Source: Gammaproteobacteria bacterium
GTDB lineage: Bacteria; Pseudomonadota; Gammaproteobacteria; Ga0077536
DNA length: 64,000 nt
NCBI GenBank assembly: GCA_020849475.1
Contig: JADLGE010000037.1
Coordinates: 1 to 64,000 of the forward strand
Reading direction: 5' to 3'
Part shown: in pieces, positions 31,636 through 41,840 of the stretch
Numbering within the stretch: position 1 is the first letter of the stretch
How the letters are laid out: every line of letters begins with the position of its first letter
Made by a program: the position numbers and the translations under genes
The notes under the pieces: model-generated
Seen by the model: only the letters and a program-made list of their open reading frames with translations
Told to the model about the DNA's origin: nothing
The model's database searches: none

Positions 31636-32913
31636 TCAGCCGCGCGCGTAGGCGCGGCGCACTTCCTCGGCGATGATGGCGATGCCCTGCTCGACTTCCC
31701 GCGCTGATTGCGCGTAGGAAATGCGCAGGCATTGACTCTTGTGCTCCCATTCCTCGTGCAGACCCGGGAAGAAGAATTGCCCCGGGATCACCAGCACATT
31801 GCGCTCTTTCAGGCGCGTATACAGCGCCTGGGCCGTGATCGGCAGCCCCTCGAACCACAACCACAGGAAGATGGCGCCTTCCGGCGCGTGGATTCGGAAT
31901 GGACAGCCCGCCAGGTAACGATGACACCATGCGACTGCCTGGGTGACACGCTCCAGGTAAAACGGCCGCACCACTTCGCGGGCCAACCTCAACACCTCGC
32001 CGGACTCGAACAAGGACGTCACCAGGCTCGCACCGAGGCTGCTCGATGCCAATGACAGGATGGCATTGAAGCTGCGCACCGCTTCAATGATTTCGGGACG
32101 CGCAATGACGATGCCGGTGCGCAGCCCCGGCAAGCCGAGTTTGGACAGACTCATGCAATAGATGACGTGCTGGTCGAACACCGGGTCACCGGCGCTGAAC
32201 ATGATGTCCGGAAATGGCACCCCGTAGGCGTTGTCGATGATCAGAGGCACGTCCGCGGCACGCGTCATTTCGAGCAGCGTGTGGAGTTCGTCGTTGGAGA
32301 TGACATTGCCGGTCGGATTGGTCGGGCGACTGACGCACACGGCGCCGGTGTCATCGTTGATATCCACGCTCGAGAAATCGATATGGTATTTGAAGCTGTG
32401 CTCATCCAGCCTTTCGATGCGCGGCCGGCTCGATTGAATCGCCGCGGGCGTTGCCGTCAGATCGCCATAGCCAATGTATTCGGGTGTCATCGGCAAGCGC
32501 AGGTGGCGACGACGTCCGTCCGCGCATTCGCCCGTCAGCAAATTGAACAGGATGAAAAAGCTCGACTGACTGCCGGCCGTCACCGCCACGTTGTCATCGG
32601 TAATCTGCCAGCCAAAACGCGTGCGAAACAGCGTTGCGACCGCGCGCAGGAACGGGCGATATCCCTGCGGCCCGTCGTAGACGCTGCTCAAGCGGTCGAA
32701 GCTGCCATCCGCGAGCTGCTGCTCCATCGCCTGGTGAAAGATGTCCTGCATGGCGGGAATGCGGGCAGGATTGCCACCGCCGAGATTGCAGATGTCGCGG
32801 TCGCTCTCCAACACTTCCCCCAAATCGTCCATCAGCAGGCGGGTGCCCGTCGGTCCGACAAAACGCGAAGCGAGACTGGAAAAATGCAGAGCCATGGGCG
32901 AGTGGAGCGTCAT
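31636..32913 (-). CDS. avtA: Valine-pyruvate aminotransferase
   Basis: A 425-residue fold-type I PLP aminotransferase. It begins with SSLASRFVGPTGTRLLMDDLG and NLGGGNPARIP, both typical of AvtA, then SVYDGPQGYRPF, RPTNPTGNVIS, DNAYGVPFPD, and the PLP lysine in SLSKLGLPGLRTG. It transfers the amino group between valine and pyruvate (alanine). Length agrees with E. coli AvtA (417). It is convergent with sohB (13-base gap) and divergent from a small membrane protein gene. Confidence 0.93.
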   Translation of the reverse strand: MTLHSPMALHFSSLASRFVGPTGTRLLMDDLGEVLESDRDICNLGGGNPARIPAMQDIFHQAMEQQLADGSFDRLSSVYDGPQGYRPFLRAVATLFRTRFGWQITDDNVAVTAGSQSSFFILFNLLTGECADGRRRHLRLPMTPEYIGYGDLTATPAAIQSSRPRIERLDEHSFKYHIDFSSVDINDDTGAVCVSRPTNPTGNVISNDELHTLLEMTRAADVPLIIDNAYGVPFPDIMFSAGDPVFDQHVIYCMSLSKLGLPGLRTGIVIARPEIIEAVRSFNAILSLASSSLGASLVTSLFESGEVLRLAREVVRPFYLERVTQAVAWCHRYLAGCPFRIHAPEGAIFLWLWFEGLPITAQALYTRLKERNVLVIPGQFFFPGLHEEWEHKSQCLRISYAQSAREVEQGIAIIAEEVRRAYARG

Positions 32914-32975: not shown

Positions 32976-33311
32976 TTGAATAATTGGCTCAAGAGTCTTG
33001 GCACTTTGCGCTTCCTAATGATGCTCGCGGCCTTGGCCTGTGTCGTTGCCGCGCCCTTTGCCGATGGCAAGACCTACGTTCATGACTGGCGTCTGCTGCC
33101 GTCGGTGATCGCGCCCTCAATCATGATGATGCTGGTGTTCGCCATTCCGCTTGACGTCTGCATGGCGAAAATCTTCATGTCCGACGCGCCGGCCAGCGAG
33201 GTCACGCGACTGTCGCGCGCCATCCGTATCGAACTCATCGTGCTGGTCATCCTGGTGCTGTCGTGGCTGCCCTTCATGTTGAAGGTGATGGATTACTGGC
33301 CGTTCGACTGA
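32976..33311 (+). CDS. Small integral membrane protein of unknown function
   Basis: About 111 residues with three predicted membrane helices (LRFLMMLAALACVVAAPFA, LLPSVIAPSIMMMLVFAIPL, IELIVLVILVLSWLPFMLKV). I do not recognise a family. The start is uncertain: no ATG precedes the first helix, so the listed TTG at 32976 is used; its AGG is only one base upstream. It is divergent from avtA and followed by an AT-rich promoter region. Confidence 0.6.
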   Translation: MNNWLKSLGTLRFLMMLAALACVVAAPFADGKTYVHDWRLLPSVIAPSIMMMLVFAIPLDVCMAKIFMSDAPASEVTRLSRAIRIELIVLVILVLSWLPFMLKVMDYWPFD

Positions 33312-33393: not shown

Positions 33394-33435
33394 TTCGGAG
33401 TTAGTTTAAATTTAGACTGCAATTCTTTGAATTTC

Positions 33436-34341
33436 ATGCGCTTCAAGGATATAAAAATCACCGTCACCAGGATTCTGGCGCGCCTCGCGCCCGCCTTGTT
33501 CGGCGCCAGCAAGCAGCAGCGCGTCGAATTTCCGTGGGGCGCGGACAAACTTCGCTTCGAACACCTCGCTGATTTCGACTTCGCGCTGAGCGCCCGCACC
33601 GGCGTGCTGCCCGCGCGACTCCATGAACTCATGCGGCGCTCGGCCGCCGACCTCGAAGCCGAAGTGCACGGCATCCGCCATCTCGATCAACGCATCACCG
33701 ACATCCTGACCGCCAACGAAGCTGAGGCCGTACCCTGCGGCCCGGCCGTCGCGCAAGTAGGTGTCGCGGTGTTTTCCAAGGATTTCGATTGGCGCTCGCT
33801 GTTCGCGCATCTGGTGGAGCTGCCCGCGAGCGACAACAGCTATGTACGCACGGCGCTGCGCAAATATCAGCTCTATCTCAACGCACGCCTGTCGACCGTG
33901 CGCACGGTGCTCGAGTTGCTGGCCCACGCACCCGCCATGGCGTCGGAGGAAATGGACGCCAAGGCCACGGTGATGTTCACCGCCGACGGCGAGATGCACG
34001 AATTCACTCGCGACGAGTTACGCCGCTTGCCGCAAGGAGAAGCGGTCACTCTGAAACTCGCGCCCGGCAGTGCCATTTCCCTCAAGCTCGCCCGCCATCA
34101 ATTCTCGCTGACCCATAACCGTGAATGGGCCCTGGTCGCCGACAACGGCAAGACCTATACCCTGCACGACGGTGTGAACTGCGTCGGCCGCGGCCGCGAC
34201 AACGATGTCTCACTTGATTCAGATTTTCGCAACGTGTCGCGCAAGCACCTGCTCGCGCAGCCCCTCGCCAACGACGTCATCCTGCTGACCGACATCTCGT
34301 CCCACGGCACCTACGTGCCGCCGACCGCCCTGGCCTCCTAG
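33436..34341 (+). CDS. FHA-domain protein with unrecognised N-terminal region
   Basis: About 301 residues. Residues 1-225 are soluble and of unknown family, with a helical stretch around YVRTALRKYQLYLNARLSTVRTVLELL. The C-terminal ~75 residues form a forkhead-associated domain: YTLHDGVNCVGRGRDNDVSL, then VSRKHLLAQ and LTDISSHGTYV, with the phosphothreonine-binding arginine, serine and SSHGT loop preserved. It should bind a phosphorylated partner protein; no serine/threonine kinase or phosphatase gene is nearby. A TTG at 33427 is an alternative start. It ends five bases before the convergent hipA-like gene. Confidence 0.75.
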   Translation: MRFKDIKITVTRILARLAPALFGASKQQRVEFPWGADKLRFEHLADFDFALSARTGVLPARLHELMRRSAADLEAEVHGIRHLDQRITDILTANEAEAVPCGPAVAQVGVAVFSKDFDWRSLFAHLVELPASDNSYVRTALRKYQLYLNARLSTVRTVLELLAHAPAMASEEMDAKATVMFTADGEMHEFTRDELRRLPQGEAVTLKLAPGSAISLKLARHQFSLTHNREWALVADNGKTYTLHDGVNCVGRGRDNDVSLDSDFRNVSRKHLLAQPLANDVILLTDISSHGTYVPPTALAS

Positions 34342-34346
34342 CAGGT

Positions 34347-35798
34347 CTATTCGGGCAACAGGCTGATCTGACTGCCGCTCACGTATTTCGGCGTGGGCGT
34401 GGACGCAGTGGTTTCCGCGGGCGGCGCCGACGCGACAGCTTCTTCAGCAGGCGCCGTGGGCGTCGCTTGCGGGGGCTCGGCGACGGTTGGCATTGGGGTT
34501 GTCACTGCGGTGGCGGTTTCAGCCGCACCTTCGGCCTCCCTGGCCTTGGACAATTCTGCTTCCAGCGACACCAGCAGCTGGCGCGCACGCTGGTCAATCA
34601 GGGCACGAATCTGCCGAATGATGCTCGCGTAGCCGTTCTGACGCTGAAATCGCTCTTCTACCTCGGCGGCCAAAGGCGGCAGGCTCAGTGCGGCATCACG
34701 CAGTTGCTCGATGACATAGCTGCCGCGCACGCCAATCTGCCGCGCAAATTCGTGCCAGCGTCCAACCGTCATCCAGTCGGGCCGATCTTCGCCACCAATA
34801 GGAAAGCCCATGCGGTAGTTCATGCCGGGATAGACATGGGTGGACCACAGACCGAAAAACGGCGCGAGACGCGGCGCGTGGGCGCCATAGCGCAGCGCCA
34901 GCTGCTTGGCGTGTCCTGCGCCGAAGCCGACCAGGAAGCTGAACACCGTCCACTGCACGAGTGCGCGCAGATCGGCCGCCGGCCGCGCACTCAGGTCACG
35001 CAGCATGCGCGCGATGTCGTGCAGACCCAGCCCGCCTTCACGGGCGAATTTTTCGTGGGGATTCAAACCCGCAATCTGGCAGAAATCTTCCATATGCAGT
35101 GCATTCACCACCTCGCCACTGCTGCGGTCCATGCGTGTCACGCACAGCGCCGCGACCTGCCCATGCACGACCTCACAGGGCGCCACCGCCAAGCCGAAGG
35201 CCGCGGCCAATTGCGTGGTGTAGGCCTCGTTCATCACCGACTCGCGCAGGCCCGGGCGCGCCGGCTTCAGGATGTGGGTTGTCAGCTGCCCGTCCAGCAT
35301 CAGCGTCGCCGCGCCGTCCGCGTAGCGCACCGGCAGCTTGTCGAACTCGCCCGGCAGGGTCACACGCAGGCCATCGGCCTCGGCGAGCAAGGGGTGGATG
35401 GGCAAGATGGCGATGGCATTGCGCAGCTCAGCCTCGTTGAGCTGCCGCGGCGCACGTTTCTCGACTGGCGCCCCCGCGCTCGGCCGCAGACTCAAGGCGC
35501 CCGGGCAATCCCCCGCGAGTCGCGCCAGGAGAGCAAAGTCGTTGCGCTCCGAGATGCCGAGGCTCTGTGCCAGGCGCACCCGGATCTCGCCCTCCGGCAG
35601 CAGATTGCAAAACACTGCCCGCACCCGGTCGCCCTGGTATACCGCCTGGCGACGCGGCAAGGCGAGTGAGATCGGCGGTTCGAGTGCCTGCGCGGCGACG
35701 CTGCCGCCATAGACGAAAGACCACAGGCCGGCCGCCGATTCGCTGAGGCGCCCGGCAACGCGACCGTTCATCAAGACTTCGAGATCGTTGTTGGCCAT
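34347..35798 (-). CDS. HipA-family protein lacking the catalytic kinase residues
   Basis: A 483-residue HipA homologue, the toxin partner of HipB. The couple_hipA N-terminal domain (MANNDLEVLMNGRVAGRL) and the ATP-lysine strand TTHILKPA (K178) are kept. The catalytic loop normally reading GxxDxHxKN is GFGAGHAKQ (291-299): Asp replaced by Ala294 and Asn by Gln299. The metal-binding PxYDL motif is PFFGL, with Gly316 for Asp. The region around the usual activation loop reads TLPGEFDKLPV. A ~60-residue Ala/Pro/Thr-rich tail extends the C-terminus. It follows hipB by four bases. The reading frame is intact, so this looks like a selected pseudokinase rather than decay. Confidence 0.85.
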   Translation of the reverse strand: MANNDLEVLMNGRVAGRLSESAAGLWSFVYGGSVAAQALEPPISLALPRRQAVYQGDRVRAVFCNLLPEGEIRVRLAQSLGISERNDFALLARLAGDCPGALSLRPSAGAPVEKRAPRQLNEAELRNAIAILPIHPLLAEADGLRVTLPGEFDKLPVRYADGAATLMLDGQLTTHILKPARPGLRESVMNEAYTTQLAAAFGLAVAPCEVVHGQVAALCVTRMDRSSGEVVNALHMEDFCQIAGLNPHEKFAREGGLGLHDIARMLRDLSARPAADLRALVQWTVFSFLVGFGAGHAKQLALRYGAHAPRLAPFFGLWSTHVYPGMNYRMGFPIGGEDRPDWMTVGRWHEFARQIGVRGSYVIEQLRDAALSLPPLAAEVEERFQRQNGYASIIRQIRALIDQRARQLLVSLEAELSKAREAEGAAETATAVTTPMPTVAEPPQATPTAPAEEAVASAPPAETTASTPTPKYVSGSQISLLPE

Positions 35799-35802
35799 CG
35801 CG

Positions 35803-36021
35803 CTATTCGAGGTCGCGCCAATCGCGGGCGCGGACCGTGACCGTCAGTCCCAACATGCGCAACACCTGCATGGCGCGTCCCAGTTCGACGGTCGGCTTGC
35901 CGTTCTCGAGATCCGACAGAAATCGATTCCCGACGCCAGCCAAAGCGGCCAATTCTCCCTGTCTGAGCTTCTGTAAGCGCCGTTCGGCACGAATCACTCG
36001 ACCAAGCTCTTCAGGTGACAT
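35803..36021 (-). CDS. hipB: HipB-like antitoxin, XRE-family regulator
   Basis: A 72-residue helix-turn-helix protein: LGRVIRAERRLQKLRQGELAALAGVGNRFLSDLENGKPTVELGRAMQVLRMLGL. This is the HipB pattern, including the RFLSDLENGKPTVELG stretch. It should dimerise, repress its own promoter and bind the HipA-like protein. Upstream sequence contains a perfect palindrome and a related half-site flanking a plausible promoter. The E. coli HipB C-terminal tail is shortened to a few residues (RDWRDLE). Confidence 0.88.
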   Translation of the reverse strand: MSPEELGRVIRAERRLQKLRQGELAALAGVGNRFLSDLENGKPTVELGRAMQVLRMLGLTVTVRARDWRDLE

Positions 36022-36030
36022 ATTGCTTTC

Positions 36031-36040
36031 GTACGGGAAT
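36031..36040 (-). promoter_or_regulatory. Half-site related to the hipB palindrome
   Basis: On the minus strand ATTCCCGTAC, matching half of the palindrome at 36118-36139. It lies 10 bases upstream of the hipB start, downstream of the predicted promoter. Confidence 0.5.
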
Positions 36041-36117: not shown

Positions 36118-36139
36118 TTCATTCCCTTACGGGAATGAA
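36118..36139. promoter_or_regulatory. Palindromic operator candidate for HipB
   Basis: TTCATTCCC-TTAC-GGGAATGAA: perfect nine-base arms with a four-base spacer in the hipBA upstream region, which is AT-rich compared with its surroundings. E. coli HipB also binds spaced palindromes in its own promoter. The remaining gap to the glycerate kinase gene shows no other feature. Confidence 0.65.
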
Positions 36140-36217: not shown

Positions 36218-37375
36218 TTAAAGTGATGGATGAAGTTTGGAAAGAAGCGCCAACCACAGGCCAAGGCGCACTCCGGCTTGGGTCACATTCGAACAAGCAT
36301 CTCGCAGTGCATCGGCAACAGCGCAAGGCTCGGTGACGGCCGCCTCGAGTGCATCGAACAGACCGGACCGCCACAGCGCCTCGGTCGCCTGCACACTGCC
36401 ACCGATGGCGACCACCGGAATGCCCATCTCGTGCGCCAGGCGGGCAACACCGGCCGGCGCCTTGCCGAACAGGGTCTGCGCATCCACCCTGCCCTCCCCC
36501 GTGACGACCAGGCTCGCCCCATGCAGATGGTGTCGGAGCCCGACAGCTTCCATCACCACCTCGACGCCGGGCCGCAGCTGGCCGTTCAGCACCAACAGCA
36601 AGGCGGCGCCCAGACCGCCGGCTGCACCGGCGCCAGGACGCTCCGCCACCTGCCAACCGCAGCTTTGCTCGAGCAAAGAGAAGAGCTGGCGCAGGTTGCG
36701 GTCGAGGGTCACGACGTCGGCGGCACTGGCCCCTTTCTGGGGACCGAATACCGCCGCGGCGCCACGCACCCCGCACAGGGGATTGTCGACATCGCTGGCG
36801 ATATCGATGCGGGTGTGACACAGGCGTGGATCGAGCTCACGCACATCGAGCGCGGCAATGTCGGCAAGGCTGGCACCGGCCAGGGGTTCGATGATTGCGA
36901 CACCGTCGCCGTCAAAGAAGCGCACGCCCAGGGCTTGCAGCATGCCGGCGCCGCCGTCGACGGTGGCCGAGCCGCCCAGCCCGACCACCAGGTGTCGCGC
37001 CCCACGCTCGAGACAGGCGAGGATCATCTGCCCGACGCCAAAGCTCGAGGTCCGCAATGGCGAGCGGCGCGCCGCCGGAATTTTGTCGAGGCCAATGACT
37101 TCAGCAATTTCGATGAGCGCGCGGTGGCCGTCGTCCAGCACACCGTAGCGCGCCGATATGGGTTGCCCCAGCGCATCACGCACTTCGACAGCATGCAGAC
37201 TCACGCGCGTACTCGCGGCCATGGCCTGCAAGGTCCCCTCGCCGCCATCGGCCATCGGCACTTCGATGATTTCGAGCGCGGGAAGCACGCGTCGCAGACC
37301 AACGGCCAGGGCGGCGGCCACTTCGGCGGCACTCAGACTTTCCTTGAAGGAATCGGGCGCAATCACGACTTTCAT
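36218..37375 (-). CDS. Glycerate 2-kinase (GlxK/GarK type)
   Basis: A 385-residue class I glycerate kinase forming 2-phosphoglycerate from glycerate and ATP. Family motifs: MKVVIAPDSFKESLSAAEVA at the N-terminus, VPMADGGEGT, GLGGSATVDGGAGMLQALG, GAGAAGGLGAAL, and VTGEGRVDAQTLFGKAPAGVA near residue 285. The ATG at 37375 starts the conserved N-terminus; the open frame extends 10 codons further. It works in glyoxylate/glycerate assimilation. No tartronate semialdehyde reductase gene is adjacent. Confidence 0.93.
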   Translation of the reverse strand: MKVVIAPDSFKESLSAAEVAAALAVGLRRVLPALEIIEVPMADGGEGTLQAMAASTRVSLHAVEVRDALGQPISARYGVLDDGHRALIEIAEVIGLDKIPAARRSPLRTSSFGVGQMILACLERGARHLVVGLGGSATVDGGAGMLQALGVRFFDGDGVAIIEPLAGASLADIAALDVRELDPRLCHTRIDIASDVDNPLCGVRGAAAVFGPQKGASAADVVTLDRNLRQLFSLLEQSCGWQVAERPGAGAAGGLGAALLLVLNGQLRPGVEVVMEAVGLRHHLHGASLVVTGEGRVDAQTLFGKAPAGVARLAHEMGIPVVAIGGSVQATEALWRSGLFDALEAAVTEPCAVADALRDACSNVTQAGVRLGLWLALLSKLHPSL

Positions 37376-37466
37376 GGTCGCAATGTAAACCAGCGGCATG
37401 ACCAATGGGCCGCGGCATCACGCGGGCGTATGGCGATCCCCGCGGCCGACGCGCGCGGCGCGGCGC

Positions 37467-40400
37467 TCAGAACAGGCGACGGCGGCTACGTGGTCCGGCC
37501 TGGCGCTGTCCCAAACCGCCGACCAGCGCGGTGCGCACGCGCAACATCGTTGCGGTATCGAGTGATTTCAGAAATTCGATGTCGCCGCCATTCTTGATGG
37601 CTACCAGCTCGCCGCCCACCAGCGCGAGGTGCTGGTGAGCGAGCGCCGGCACGCGCGTGCCGGGCAGCACCGTACCCGCCAGGTTCAAGGGATCGACCGC
37701 CGCCAGGCGCACCACGCCGCCTTCATCGTCACGCTTGGCGCAATCACGCAGCGCGGCAACGGCATCCGGCAAGGCAAACTGCTCGCCCGTGGCGCCGGCC
37801 ACGAAACGTCCACCGCGAATTTCGCCAGCGGACTCCAGACGACGCAACGCGCGCAGCAGCAGGCGCCACGGCGGCAGCGCGGCTTCGCGCTCGACGATGC
37901 GCCGAAACACCACGCCATAGCGACCCAACACCACCCGCGCGATGGTTTCGATGGTGTCTTCGTCCAGACCTTCGTTGAGTGCATCGCCGCCGCTGCGGGG
38001 ACGCACCAGCCGATCCCAGCGGCCGGCGTCTTCGATGCCGGGCAAGGTGCTGCGACGCGCGCGTCTGCCGAGCGGATTGCGTCGCGCCAAGGGCGTGGTC
38101 AAAGCGCGCAGGCCGACGAAGCTGTCACAGGTCACGAGGCCAACGGCGGCCAATTCATCCAGCGCGTTTTCCACCTGGCTGCGCAGCAGGCCGCGGACGC
38201 CGGCGATGTCATCGAAAAACGCCGCCCCACGCGCTTCGATATAGCCGAGCACCTGGCGCGCGGCGCTGCTGATCTGGCAACCATCCTCGGGCCCGGCGAC
38301 CGCCAGCCATGCCTGCAATTGACTGCGCGCGACCAGACTGACGGGCGTGGTGCGCAAAGTGCCGGCGAGTCGCGGTGCGGTGCTGCGCTTTGGACTCAAG
38401 CGCAGCCACACATAACGCCCGGCGCGAATCGCCTCGTCGAGCATGCGGCTGTCGTAACCGCGCACGCGCGCCGGCAGGATCTCGCTCTCCCAGGCCGCCA
38501 CCGGCGCTTCGAATCCAGACAGTTGGGTGAGCACCGCCTGCAGCCCGGCGCTGCCTTCGACACGCGATGCAGGCGAGACACTCTGCCAGTCCAACAGAAA
38601 GCGTGCGAACACCGCCGCCGGCACTGCCTCGATTTCCTGGCGCAGGCGATTGAGCGTGTATCGATGGATGCGCGCCAGCAGGCGTCGCTCGCACCACTGC
38701 GTGGGCTCCGCGAATTCTTCGCTGAAATGACCACGCAGCGCGATGCCGGCCTGTTCCAGCGCGAGCAAAGCCTGCTCCACCTCGCGCGGCGCGCACGGCA
38801 AAGCCATGGCCAAGGCCGTGGCGGTGGTCGGGCCGGCGATTTCGAGGCGACTGCGCACCAAGGACTTGATGGCTTCCTCGCGTGCCGGCGGCGCGGGCCC
38901 GGCATAGGCGGCGGCCGCCTCACTCATGCACAGTTCGGCCGCCGGCTCGAGCGCCAGCAATTCGTGTCGCCTCTCGGTGGCGCACCAGCCGCTCACGCGT
39001 CCTTGCCACCCTACCGCGCGACCGCGCTCGAACAGCGTACGCAGGGCGTCGGCGAGCCACGCGCCGTCGTCGCCCTCAGCACCGGCGATGTGTTGAACTT
39101 CGTCGCCACTGGCCACGCCGAGCATCAACAGCGCATCGTGCAGTTCCTCGGCGTTGCGCGCGCTGGGCCACACTTCGTCGCGCACGCGTGCAATGGCCGC
39201 CGCATCGAGCGCGGCGAGATCCTTGGCGGCGGCGCTGTCCAGCCAGCGGCGACTGCTGACCGCCTGCGTGCGGCGCTCTTCGAGCGGCGCGTCGTCGAGA
39301 AATGCATAGGGATTGGCGTTCAAGACCTGCAAGGCGAACGGCGAGGGTTCGGTCAGATCGCGCGCCACCAGTTGCTTGCGCCCGGCAGCCATGTCGCGCA
39401 GCAGGTTTTCGAGCGCGACGATGTCCATCGCCTCGTGCAGGCAGTCATCCAGCGCCTGGTTGACCAGCGGGTGATCGGGCACCTCGCGGCGTCCGCCGAG
39501 ATTCTCCGCACACGCCAATTGATCCGGAAACACCAGCGCCGCGAGGTCATCCGCGTTCATGCGCAGCAGGCGCGGCGGCGTCTTGCGGCCGGCGCGAAAG
39601 CGCTCGATGGCGAGCGCACAGCCCGCCACCCAGCGCCAGCGCACGGTGAACATCGGCGCTGTCAGCACGGCCTGAATGAGCACGTCGCGTACGCTGTCGG
39701 CGTTGAGATAACGCCACACGTCATCCAGCGCGAAACTGTGCACCGCGCCGAGCGACAACACGATGGCATCCTCGACGGCGGCTGCCTGCAGTTCGAAATT
39801 GAAAGTGCGACAGAAACGTTTGCGCAGCGCCAGTCCCCAGGCCTTGTTCAAGCGACTGCCGAAAGGCGAATGGATGACGAGCTGCATGCCGCCCGATTCA
39901 TCGAAGAAGCGCTCCATGACCAAGGTCTGCTGGGTCGGCATCGCGCCCAGCGCGCGATAGCCGACCGTGAGGTAGTCGGCGGCCTGCCGCGCAGCCACCA
40001 CACCCACGCCTTCTATCGCTGCCAGGCGACGCGCCAGCGCGCTCGCATCGCCGCCCGCCTCGTCCAACATCCGCGCGGCGGTTTCCCTTAAACGCGCAAC
40101 CGCCCGCGACAACTCCGCGCTGCGCGACGGCGCCTCGCCCAGCCAGAACGGCATGTTGGGCGGCTCGCCCTGTGCGTCTTCGACCCGCAGGCCGGCGGCC
40201 TCGACGCGCAACACGCGCCACGACGTATTACCGAGTTGGAAGATGTTGCCTGGCAGACTCTCGATGGCGAAGTCTTCGTTGACCGTGCCGACGCGCTCGC
40301 CCTGCGGCTCGGCGATGACGTCATAGTCGGCGTTATCGGGGATCGCGCCCCCGCAGGTGACGGCCGTCAGCCGCGCGCCACGCCGCGCACTCAGGCGGCC

Positions 40401-41840
40401 ATTGACGTCATCGAGATGCAGATAGGCCGAGCGACGCCCGTGGCCAAAGCTGAAGCCCTCGGCCAGCATGCGCACCACGGTATCGAATTCCGTGCGCGGC
40501 AAGGCGCGGTATGGCCACGTGGCGCGGTACATCTCGTAGAGTTCATCCATGCCGCGCTCGCCCATCGCCACTTCGGCGACGATCTGCTGCGCCAGCACGT
40601 CACGCGGACCGGGCGGCACTTCGACGATATCGAGCTCATCGCGCGCGACCATGTCCAGCAGCGCGATGGATTCAATCAATTCGTCGCGCGTCTGCGGGAA
40701 CAGACGTGCGCGGGCAATGCCGTCGACCGCGTGGCCGGCACGGCCAGCGCGCTGCAGGAACATCGACAAGGTCCGCGTGGCGCCCAACTGGCACACCAGG
40801 TCGACATCGCCGATATCGATGCCGAGTTCCAGCGAGGCGGTCGCCACCAGCACTTTCAACTGGCCGCGCTTGAGGCGCGTCTCGGCATCGAGGCGACGCT
40901 CACGCGACATGCTGCCATGGTGCGCGCAGACCTTGTCGTCACCGAGTTCGTCGGCCAAGGCGCGCGCCAGGCGCTCGGCCATGCGCCGAGTGTTGACGAA
41001 CACCAGCGTGCTGCGATGGCCGTTGACGAGTTCGATCATGCGCGCCCGCAGTTCGCCGGCAACTTCAGCGGAGATCACCGTTTCCAGCGGCGACGGTGGC
41101 ATTTCGATGGCGAGATCGCGAGCGCGCTTGTGGCCTTCGTCGACGATCGCACAGAGCGGCGCGGTGTCACCTTGCGCGCCATGTGGTTGGCCGCACAGAA
41201 ATTCCGCGACGCGCTCTATCGGTCGCTGGGTTGCCGACAGTCCGACGCGCACGGCAGGCCGCGGCGTGAGCGCATCGAGCCGCGCCAGACTCAAGGCCAG
41301 GTGCGCGCCGCGCTTGTTGCCGACCAGCGCGTGAATTTCATCGATGATGACGGTGCGCACCGTGCGCAGCATGTCGCGCCCACTGTCGCTGGTCAGCAGG
41401 ATGTAGAGCGATTCGGGCGTGGTGACCAGGATGTGCGGCGGACGCTTGCGCATGAGCGTGCGGGCGGCGGCCGGTGTATCGCCAGTGCGCACCGCGGTGG
41501 TGATGGCCGGCGCGTCTCCGAGTTCCTCGGCAAGCAGGGCCTGGATGCCGGCCAGCGGCCGTTCGAGATTGCGTTGGATGTCGTTGCTGAGCGCTTTCAG
41601 CGGCGATACGTACAGCACCGCCGTCTCCTGACACAGGCTGCCATCGCGGGCCTGCGCGGCGAGCTCGCTCAGCGCGGTCAGGAATGCCGCGAGGGTTTTA
41701 CCCGAGCCGGTAGGCGCGGCCACCAGGGTGTGCCGACCCGCTTCGAGCGCCGCCCAGGCACGCGTCTGGCACGGCGTGGCAGCGGCAAAGCTGGCGTTGA
41801 ACCAGCGCTGGACGGCGGCATCGAAAGCGGCAGCGGGCAT
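37467..41840 (-). CDS. lhr: Lhr-family ATP-dependent helicase, large form
   Basis: A 1457-residue superfamily 2 helicase close in size to E. coli Lhr (1538). Motif I is AAPTGSGKTLAAF (near residue 40), motif II DEIH, motif III GLSATQRP, and motif VI FLQRAGRAGHAVDG. The Lhr winged-helix/core section and a long C-terminal domain follow; the C-terminal region resembles the Lhr-CTD linked to nucleic acid repair (GLRALTTPLARRNPLG near the end). It unwinds RNA:DNA or DNA with 3'-5' polarity. The Lhr-associated exonuclease gene is not adjacent; the upstream neighbour (HDOD gene) is 64 bases away on the same strand. Confidence 0.93.
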   Translation of the reverse strand: MPAAAFDAAVQRWFNASFAAATPCQTRAWAALEAGRHTLVAAPTGSGKTLAAFLTALSELAAQARDGSLCQETAVLYVSPLKALSNDIQRNLERPLAGIQALLAEELGDAPAITTAVRTGDTPAAARTLMRKRPPHILVTTPESLYILLTSDSGRDMLRTVRTVIIDEIHALVGNKRGAHLALSLARLDALTPRPAVRVGLSATQRPIERVAEFLCGQPHGAQGDTAPLCAIVDEGHKRARDLAIEMPPSPLETVISAEVAGELRARMIELVNGHRSTLVFVNTRRMAERLARALADELGDDKVCAHHGSMSRERRLDAETRLKRGQLKVLVATASLELGIDIGDVDLVCQLGATRTLSMFLQRAGRAGHAVDGIARARLFPQTRDELIESIALLDMVARDELDIVEVPPGPRDVLAQQIVAEVAMGERGMDELYEMYRATWPYRALPRTEFDTVVRMLAEGFSFGHGRRSAYLHLDDVNGRLSARRGARLTAVTCGGAIPDNADYDVIAEPQGERVGTVNEDFAIESLPGNIFQLGNTSWRVLRVEAAGLRVEDAQGEPPNMPFWLGEAPSRSAELSRAVARLRETAARMLDEAGGDASALARRLAAIEGVGVVAARQAADYLTVGYRALGAMPTQQTLVMERFFDESGGMQLVIHSPFGSRLNKAWGLALRKRFCRTFNFELQAAAVEDAIVLSLGAVHSFALDDVWRYLNADSVRDVLIQAVLTAPMFTVRWRWVAGCALAIERFRAGRKTPPRLLRMNADDLAALVFPDQLACAENLGGRREVPDHPLVNQALDDCLHEAMDIVALENLLRDMAAGRKQLVARDLTEPSPFALQVLNANPYAFLDDAPLEERRTQAVSSRRWLDSAAAKDLAALDAAAIARVRDEVWPSARNAEELHDALLMLGVASGDEVQHIAGAEGDDGAWLADALRTLFERGRAVGWQGRVSGWCATERRHELLALEPAAELCMSEAAAAYAGPAPPAREEAIKSLVRSRLEIAGPTTATALAMALPCAPREVEQALLALEQAGIALRGHFSEEFAEPTQWCERRLLARIHRYTLNRLRQEIEAVPAAVFARFLLDWQSVSPASRVEGSAGLQAVLTQLSGFEAPVAAWESEILPARVRGYDSRMLDEAIRAGRYVWLRLSPKRSTAPRLAGTLRTTPVSLVARSQLQAWLAVAGPEDGCQISSAARQVLGYIEARGAAFFDDIAGVRGLLRSQVENALDELAAVGLVTCDSFVGLRALTTPLARRNPLGRRARRSTLPGIEDAGRWDRLVRPRSGGDALNEGLDEDTIETIARVVLGRYGVVFRRIVEREAALPPWRLLLRALRRLESAGEIRGGRFVAGATGEQFALPDAVAALRDCAKRDDEGGVVRLAAVDPLNLAGTVLPGTRVPALAHQHLALVGGELVAIKNGGDIEFLKSLDTATMLRVRTALVGGLGQRQAGPRSRRRLF

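Follow-up and report, generated by a model that had tools for sequence, protein, structure and literature searches.

HipA, the founding persistence toxin, is usually treated as an active kinase. In the E. coli K-12 HipBA system (PDB 2wiu, 3dnv, 4yg7) hipB precedes hipA, HipA has a two-domain fold, and the helix-turn-helix (HTH) protein HipB has a palindromic operator, TATCC-N8-GGATA (PMC4655474). The HipBA-operator complex of Shewanella oneidensis (PDB 4pu3, 4pu4) shows HipA, HipB and DNA assembled together, with a HipA of the active kinase type. HipBST of E. coli O127 and Legionella is tripartite, with a split HipA and a kinase that is active in nature, and its kinase subunit aids repression by HipB even when dead: leaky expression of hipBST or hipBT with kinase-dead HipT reduces transcription, HipB on its own has to be made in large amounts, and repression requires less HipB when dead HipT is present (PMC10627512). 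The kinase families surveyed by Gerdes (2021; PMC8262856) share a homologous core with the protein described here, and in the part of that survey drawn on here their kinase motifs are described as conserved and no pseudokinase family appears. A search of the literature, covering open-licence text, likewise returned no published HipA pseudokinase. The general idea that toxin-antitoxin systems can be domesticated through vertical inheritance has been put forward before (PMC2701414).

Here we analyze computationally a hipBA module in a 64,000-nucleotide stretch of gammaproteobacterial DNA (the window, meaning the whole stretch; Table 1) whose HipA-like product is hereafter called pseudo-HipA. Both reading frames are intact. 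Pfam detects an HTH domain in HipB (PF01381, E=1.7e-8) and, above cut-off, both HipA domains in the 483-residue partner (PF13657, E=6e-24; PF07804, E=1.5e-33); against TIGR03070 (couple_hipB) HipB scores 70.7 bits (E=7.1e-20), slightly short of the curated cut-off of 71.65. With an HTH gene directly upstream in the same operon and palindromic operators in the hipB promoter, the pair has the features of a type II module, and it lacks the HipS/HipT split of HipBST, since the N-terminal domain and core share one frame. Gene order, HipA fold, HTH protein and palindromic operator are those of E. coli K-12 HipBA, whereas the window module lacks the catalytic Asp, Asn and metal Asp, has a HipB of the Y4mF/couple_hipB type and a different operator, and occupies a fixed chromosomal locus inherited vertically. 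It could adopt the assembly seen in Shewanella, whose HipA is 25% identical. Closest by sequence are couple_hipB-couple_hipA modules of the same class (e.g. L015/L106, L105 and L108), of which L015 also has the EDRP motif; these differ in that all retain the catalytic Asp, loop Asn and metal Asp (D-N-D) and an AGxQxK Gly-rich loop.

Table 1. Features of the hipBA locus in the window and operator-like clusters at candidate target promoters.
Feature	Position	Strand	Description
Class I/II aminotransferase	31636..32913	-	Downstream syntenic anchor; PF00155, E=3.3e-23
111-aa protein	32976..33311	+	Downstream syntenic anchor; no Pfam match
FHA-domain protein	33427..34341	+	Convergent; PF00498, E=1.8e-5; syntenic, not judged part of the module
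pseudo-hipA	34347..35798	-	483-aa HipA-fold pseudokinase; A294/Q299/G316, K178 kept
C-terminal tail of pseudo-HipA	34350..34538	-	Residues 421-483; Ala/Pro/Thr-rich (57% A/P/T), disordered, low pLDDT
hipB	35803..36021	-	72-aa HTH antitoxin/repressor, Y4mF/couple_hipB type
Weaker operator-like half-palindrome	36025..36040	.	ATTCCCGTACGAAAGC (- strand), beside hipB start; second copy
HipB operator-like palindrome, main copy	36121..36136	.	ATTCCCTTACGGGAAT; kept upstream of hipB across the family
Glycerate kinase (garK-type)	36218..37405	-	Upstream syntenic anchor; PF02595, E=5.5e-132
Lhr-type large helicase	37467..41840	-	Syntenic anchor; DEAD, Helicase_C, WH_Lhr, DEAD_assoc
Operator-like palindrome cluster, window's genome (G000)	L082:4118-4253 (G000:C6:32117-32252)		Ahead of DUF6632-P450, beside a biotin-dependent carboxylase gene
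Operator-like cluster, same-genus relative (G001)	L083:1709-1797 (G001:C386)		Ahead of DUF6632-P450 (promoter of the P450 orthologue), beside a biotin-dependent carboxylase gene

A phmmer alignment with E. coli HipA, with which other HipA alignments agree, places A294, Q299 and G316 of pseudo-HipA at the positions of the catalytic Asp of the DxHxKN loop, the loop Asn and the metal-binding Asp, and K178 at the ATP lysine. A preliminary description of the locus had made the same assignments; its title says that all key kinase residues were lost, which holds for the Asp, Asn and metal Asp and fails for the lysine, retained here and lost only in relatives of genus g4. That description had also raised the objection that the catalytic Asp might be displaced nearby; this is ruled out because residues 277-336 contain neither Asp nor Glu. 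The Gly-rich loop with its adjacent autophosphorylated Ser is altered as well, with T147-LPGEFDK in place of S-xAGxQxK and S, V, L or T at position 147 among relatives. Sequence, fold and gene order place pseudo-HipA in the HipA family, and by the catalytic residues tested it is not an active HipA Ser/Thr kinase.

The structure of pseudo-HipA was modeled with AlphaFold2 from 31 related sequences (mean pLDDT 87.8, pTM 0.84). The closest solved structure was E. coli HipA 3dnv (Z 48.5; 2.1 A over 397 residues), and other matches included HipA D309Q with ADP (Z 48.1), HipA in the autorepression promoter complex 4yg7 (Z 44.5) and the Shewanella HipBA-DNA complex (Z 42.5), indicating that the kinase-dead protein retains the whole two-domain HipA fold, N-terminal subdomain included. 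The Ala/Pro/Thr-rich tail already described for this protein is real; its pLDDT is mostly below 50, with disorder starting at about residue 440. A long tail is found only in the window and in its same-genus relative G001, and it evolves faster than the core (tail dN between the two, 0.42). The tail ends in QISLLPE (residues 477-483, positions 34350-34370, - strand), which is identical in G001 (L036) although the tails are only about half identical. This end resembles a short linear motif, which we take to be possibly of the sliding-clamp type.

Orthologues were sought in 36 genomes of the family that includes the window's organism (group f1), the set to which all genome counts apply, the relatives compared being metagenome assemblies. 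Pseudo-HipA orthologues occur in 18 of them, spread over 7 genera, and every orthologue lacks the catalytic Asp, which is replaced by Leu (six), Ala (five), Gly (five), Gln (one) or His (one). HipA homologues aligned from outside the family are all D-N-D with a single exception, L107 (D to N). In a maximum-likelihood tree the 17 pseudokinases included form one clade (support 100/100) apart from the D-N-D HipAs, so the search for close homologues with the same substitutions, suggested in the preliminary description, leads to family orthologues that share the losses as one clade. With a kinase fold, missing catalytic residues and conservation by descent, there is strong evidence that pseudo-HipA is a pseudokinase, and it presumably lacks kinase activity. 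The outlying L107 (G193:C117:4542-5777) has Asn at the catalytic Asp and keeps the other kinase residues, a possible independent loss of kinase function.

As far as contigs reach, the orthologous loci share the order Lhr, garK, hipB, pseudo-hipA, (FHA), 111-aa protein and aminotransferase, with some gaps: glycerate kinase is missing in some, the 111-aa protein was not found in two, and the FHA gene occurs only in genera g1, g6, g7, g9 and g10. In all 18 loci hipB lies directly upstream of pseudo-hipA at the same chromosomal place, with a hipB-hipA start overlap in most and a 4-nt gap in the window, and HipB is 92% identical in G001 and 86% in G002. In G009 and G011 the flanking genes have stayed together with neither hipB nor pseudo-hipA present, showing that the two were lost as a unit. 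The module is therefore dispensable, two complete genomes having lost it cleanly. The FHA gene is absent from g8 and g4 loci that have pseudo-hipA and present in G011, which has no hipBA; the FHA protein is therefore a neighbor rather than a partner, and a functional link was rejected. Ahead of its FHA domain, this protein has a conserved stretch (RLPQGEAVTLKLAPGSAISLKLARHQFSL in the window) and is syntenic in five genera. One record carrying the locus, CAMCBY010000156.1 (L003), is titled as a Klebsiella pneumoniae MAG and looks misnamed, as the same locus is found in G001.

The hipB promoters carry palindromes like ATTCCCGTACGGGAAT. Allowing up to two mismatches, the hipB promoters (4,288 bp in all) contained seven such sites and the 284,914 bp taken from elsewhere in the same loci and the window contained none; at three mismatches the counts were 10 versus one. 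Promoters of g4 are among those bearing operators, though the HipA of this genus has lost even the lysine, while the hipB promoters of G002, G007, G010, G015, G017 and G021 contain no site this near the consensus. The operators first noticed in the window are real, a main copy and a weaker one beside the hipB start, and the HipB recognition region, GVGxRFxxxLExGKxxxExGR, is conserved with slight variation in all orthologues. Separately, one g4 genome has a D-N-D hipBA module (L053/L054, G034:C431) whose hipB promoter carries three similar palindromes (TTTCCCGAACGGGAAA and variants) 50 bp apart.

On balance, we favor the reading that the HipBA module has been domesticated, with pseudo-HipA serving as the co-repressor of HipB. 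Early in the history of the family the module would have settled for good at a single chromosomal site and lost its kinase, while keeping the HipA fold and the translational coupling of hipB to hipA; HipB dimers would bind the ATTCCCGTACGGGAAT-like palindromes, and pseudo-HipA, which probably binds HipB, would stiffen or bridge the HipB complex and thereby set the strength of repression. The preliminary description had offered two functions, co-repressor or binding toxin. The first is better supported because the DNA-binding parts are conserved and a dead HipT lowers the amount of HipB needed (PMC10627512), although the role is deduced from these parallels; the second we rate as very unlikely. 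HipB alone could also do all of the repression, and the dispensability of the module counts against this reading too. Toxicity of the window's module is doubtful, and the pattern suggests that what was once a toxin now serves in a gene switch.

Other explanations are less likely than co-repression, though there is room for a variant in which the cleft of the pseudokinase senses a nucleotide or metabolite, binding it without phosphate transfer and changing the hold of HipB on DNA, as in an inducible repressor. K178, Q299, G316, P149, G150 and K154 are invariant in the ten members that have K178, whose mean pairwise identity is 49%, and this conservation of the lysine and cleft is a hint that a ligand or nucleotide plays some part, which would be superfluous in a bare scaffold. 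The catalytic-loop segment is conserved in g1, g6 and g7, and a laboratory mutant, HipA D309Q, still binds ADP (title of PDB 3tpt). However, in g4 K178 is always replaced by Arg, K154 and Q299 are lost, and other positions vary, with Asp or Asn sometimes present, yet hipB, the operator and the locus are kept; ligand binding in the old pocket is therefore not needed throughout the clade, and we consider a sensing role unlikely.

Very unlikely, in our view, is a non-catalytic toxin that binds a target, for example an aminoacyl-tRNA synthetase, and so halts growth unless HipB neutralizes it. Retention of the HipA fold and the antitoxin would fit such a toxin, and Makarova and colleagues, answering a reviewer, offered the speculation that a toxin may in some cases remain functional after its enzyme activity is lost (PMC2701414), but growth arrest by HipA requires kinase activity, to go by the title of Correia 2006 (cited in PMC2701414), and the fixed locus, vertical inheritance and clean joint loss are unlike an addiction module.

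The chances are slimmer still that pseudo-HipA is a decoy or immunity protein that occupies HipB or operators against an active HipA, whether resident in the same genome or encoded by an incoming hipBA. The window's genome does encode an intact D-N-D HipA of a distant type (17% identity; L001:1363-2649, - strand, G000:C40) with an overlapping HTH-like gene (2642-2998, - strand). Its locus has no such operator site, and pseudo-HipA is the sole HipA_C protein in 11 of the 18 genomes, so the idea that it depends on an active HipA in the same genome was rejected.

A pseudogene, or a functionless toxin-antitoxin module in slow decay, would account for the progressive loss of kinase residues, greatest in g4, and for the two complete genomes that lost the module, but we give this reading little credence. 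The preliminary description had argued against simple decay from the open frame in the window; frames are open in all 18 genomes, and purifying selection on pseudo-HipA is strong. Over the 420-residue core, comparison with G001 gave dN 0.081 and dS 1.41 (NG86; dS is near saturation in g1 pairs), and the less saturated g4 pairs gave dN 0.013-0.014 against dS 0.08-0.20, values that are silent on which function is under selection. In the comparison with G001 dN was 0.27 for garK, 0.22 for the FHA gene and 0.058 for hipB, so that the core is more conserved than the neighboring GarK enzyme and the FHA protein. Decay is thus already contradicted by purifying selection, and the operator and HipB recognition region are conserved too, in keeping with the earlier view of a pseudokinase partner maintained with an intact antitoxin and operators. 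Kinase-fold proteins with other activities exist, and conserved cleft residues in ten members could suit an unorthodox catalysis in which a rearranged active site transfers a different group, as happens in some atypical kinase-fold proteins, but residues 277-336 offer no acidic group for a metal and the same residues vary freely in g4, leaving this reading a negligible chance.

Returning to HipB and its co-repressor, a candidate target lies outside the window. In the whole genome of the window's species (G000), 11 sites match TTCCCGTACGGGAA within two mismatches, fewer than the 45 for a reversed control pattern, which means that the motif shows no enrichment across the genome. Of these 11 sites, three fall within 134 bp (G000:C6:32118-32251), in the gap ahead of the DUF6632 and cytochrome P450 genes. 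The P450 orthologue of G001, a genome with no HipA_C protein besides pseudo-HipA, is 90% identical, and its promoter holds two of the six sites in that genome; an identical 16-mer is shared by the two P450 promoters in a gap that is otherwise poorly conserved. No such sites lie near the P450 homologues of other members, the pattern being confined to G000 and G001. The P450 operon may therefore belong to the regulon in these two species of one genus, although another XRE-type regulator may instead use the sites. Other operator-like sites in G000, G001, G007 and G017 are probably chance matches. Most are inside coding frames, and one, with mismatches at 4 of 16 positions, is about 58 bp upstream of a gene for a penicillin-binding protein (L084).

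Taken as a whole, the proposal is of a family-wide, vertically inherited pseudokinase clade in which the dead toxin became the permanent co-repressor of HipB, possibly also a ligand sensor, within a dedicated regulator that in some species controls metabolic genes such as the P450 operon; in this full form we see it as evenly poised between right and wrong. The clade is a natural separation-of-function experiment, addressing what a hipBA module is selected for once toxicity is gone. A sequence series is available that runs from D-N-D relatives through A-Q-G and G-Q-G forms to lysine-less ones, and the proposal that chromosomal toxin-antitoxin systems can become ordinary regulators would be made testable.
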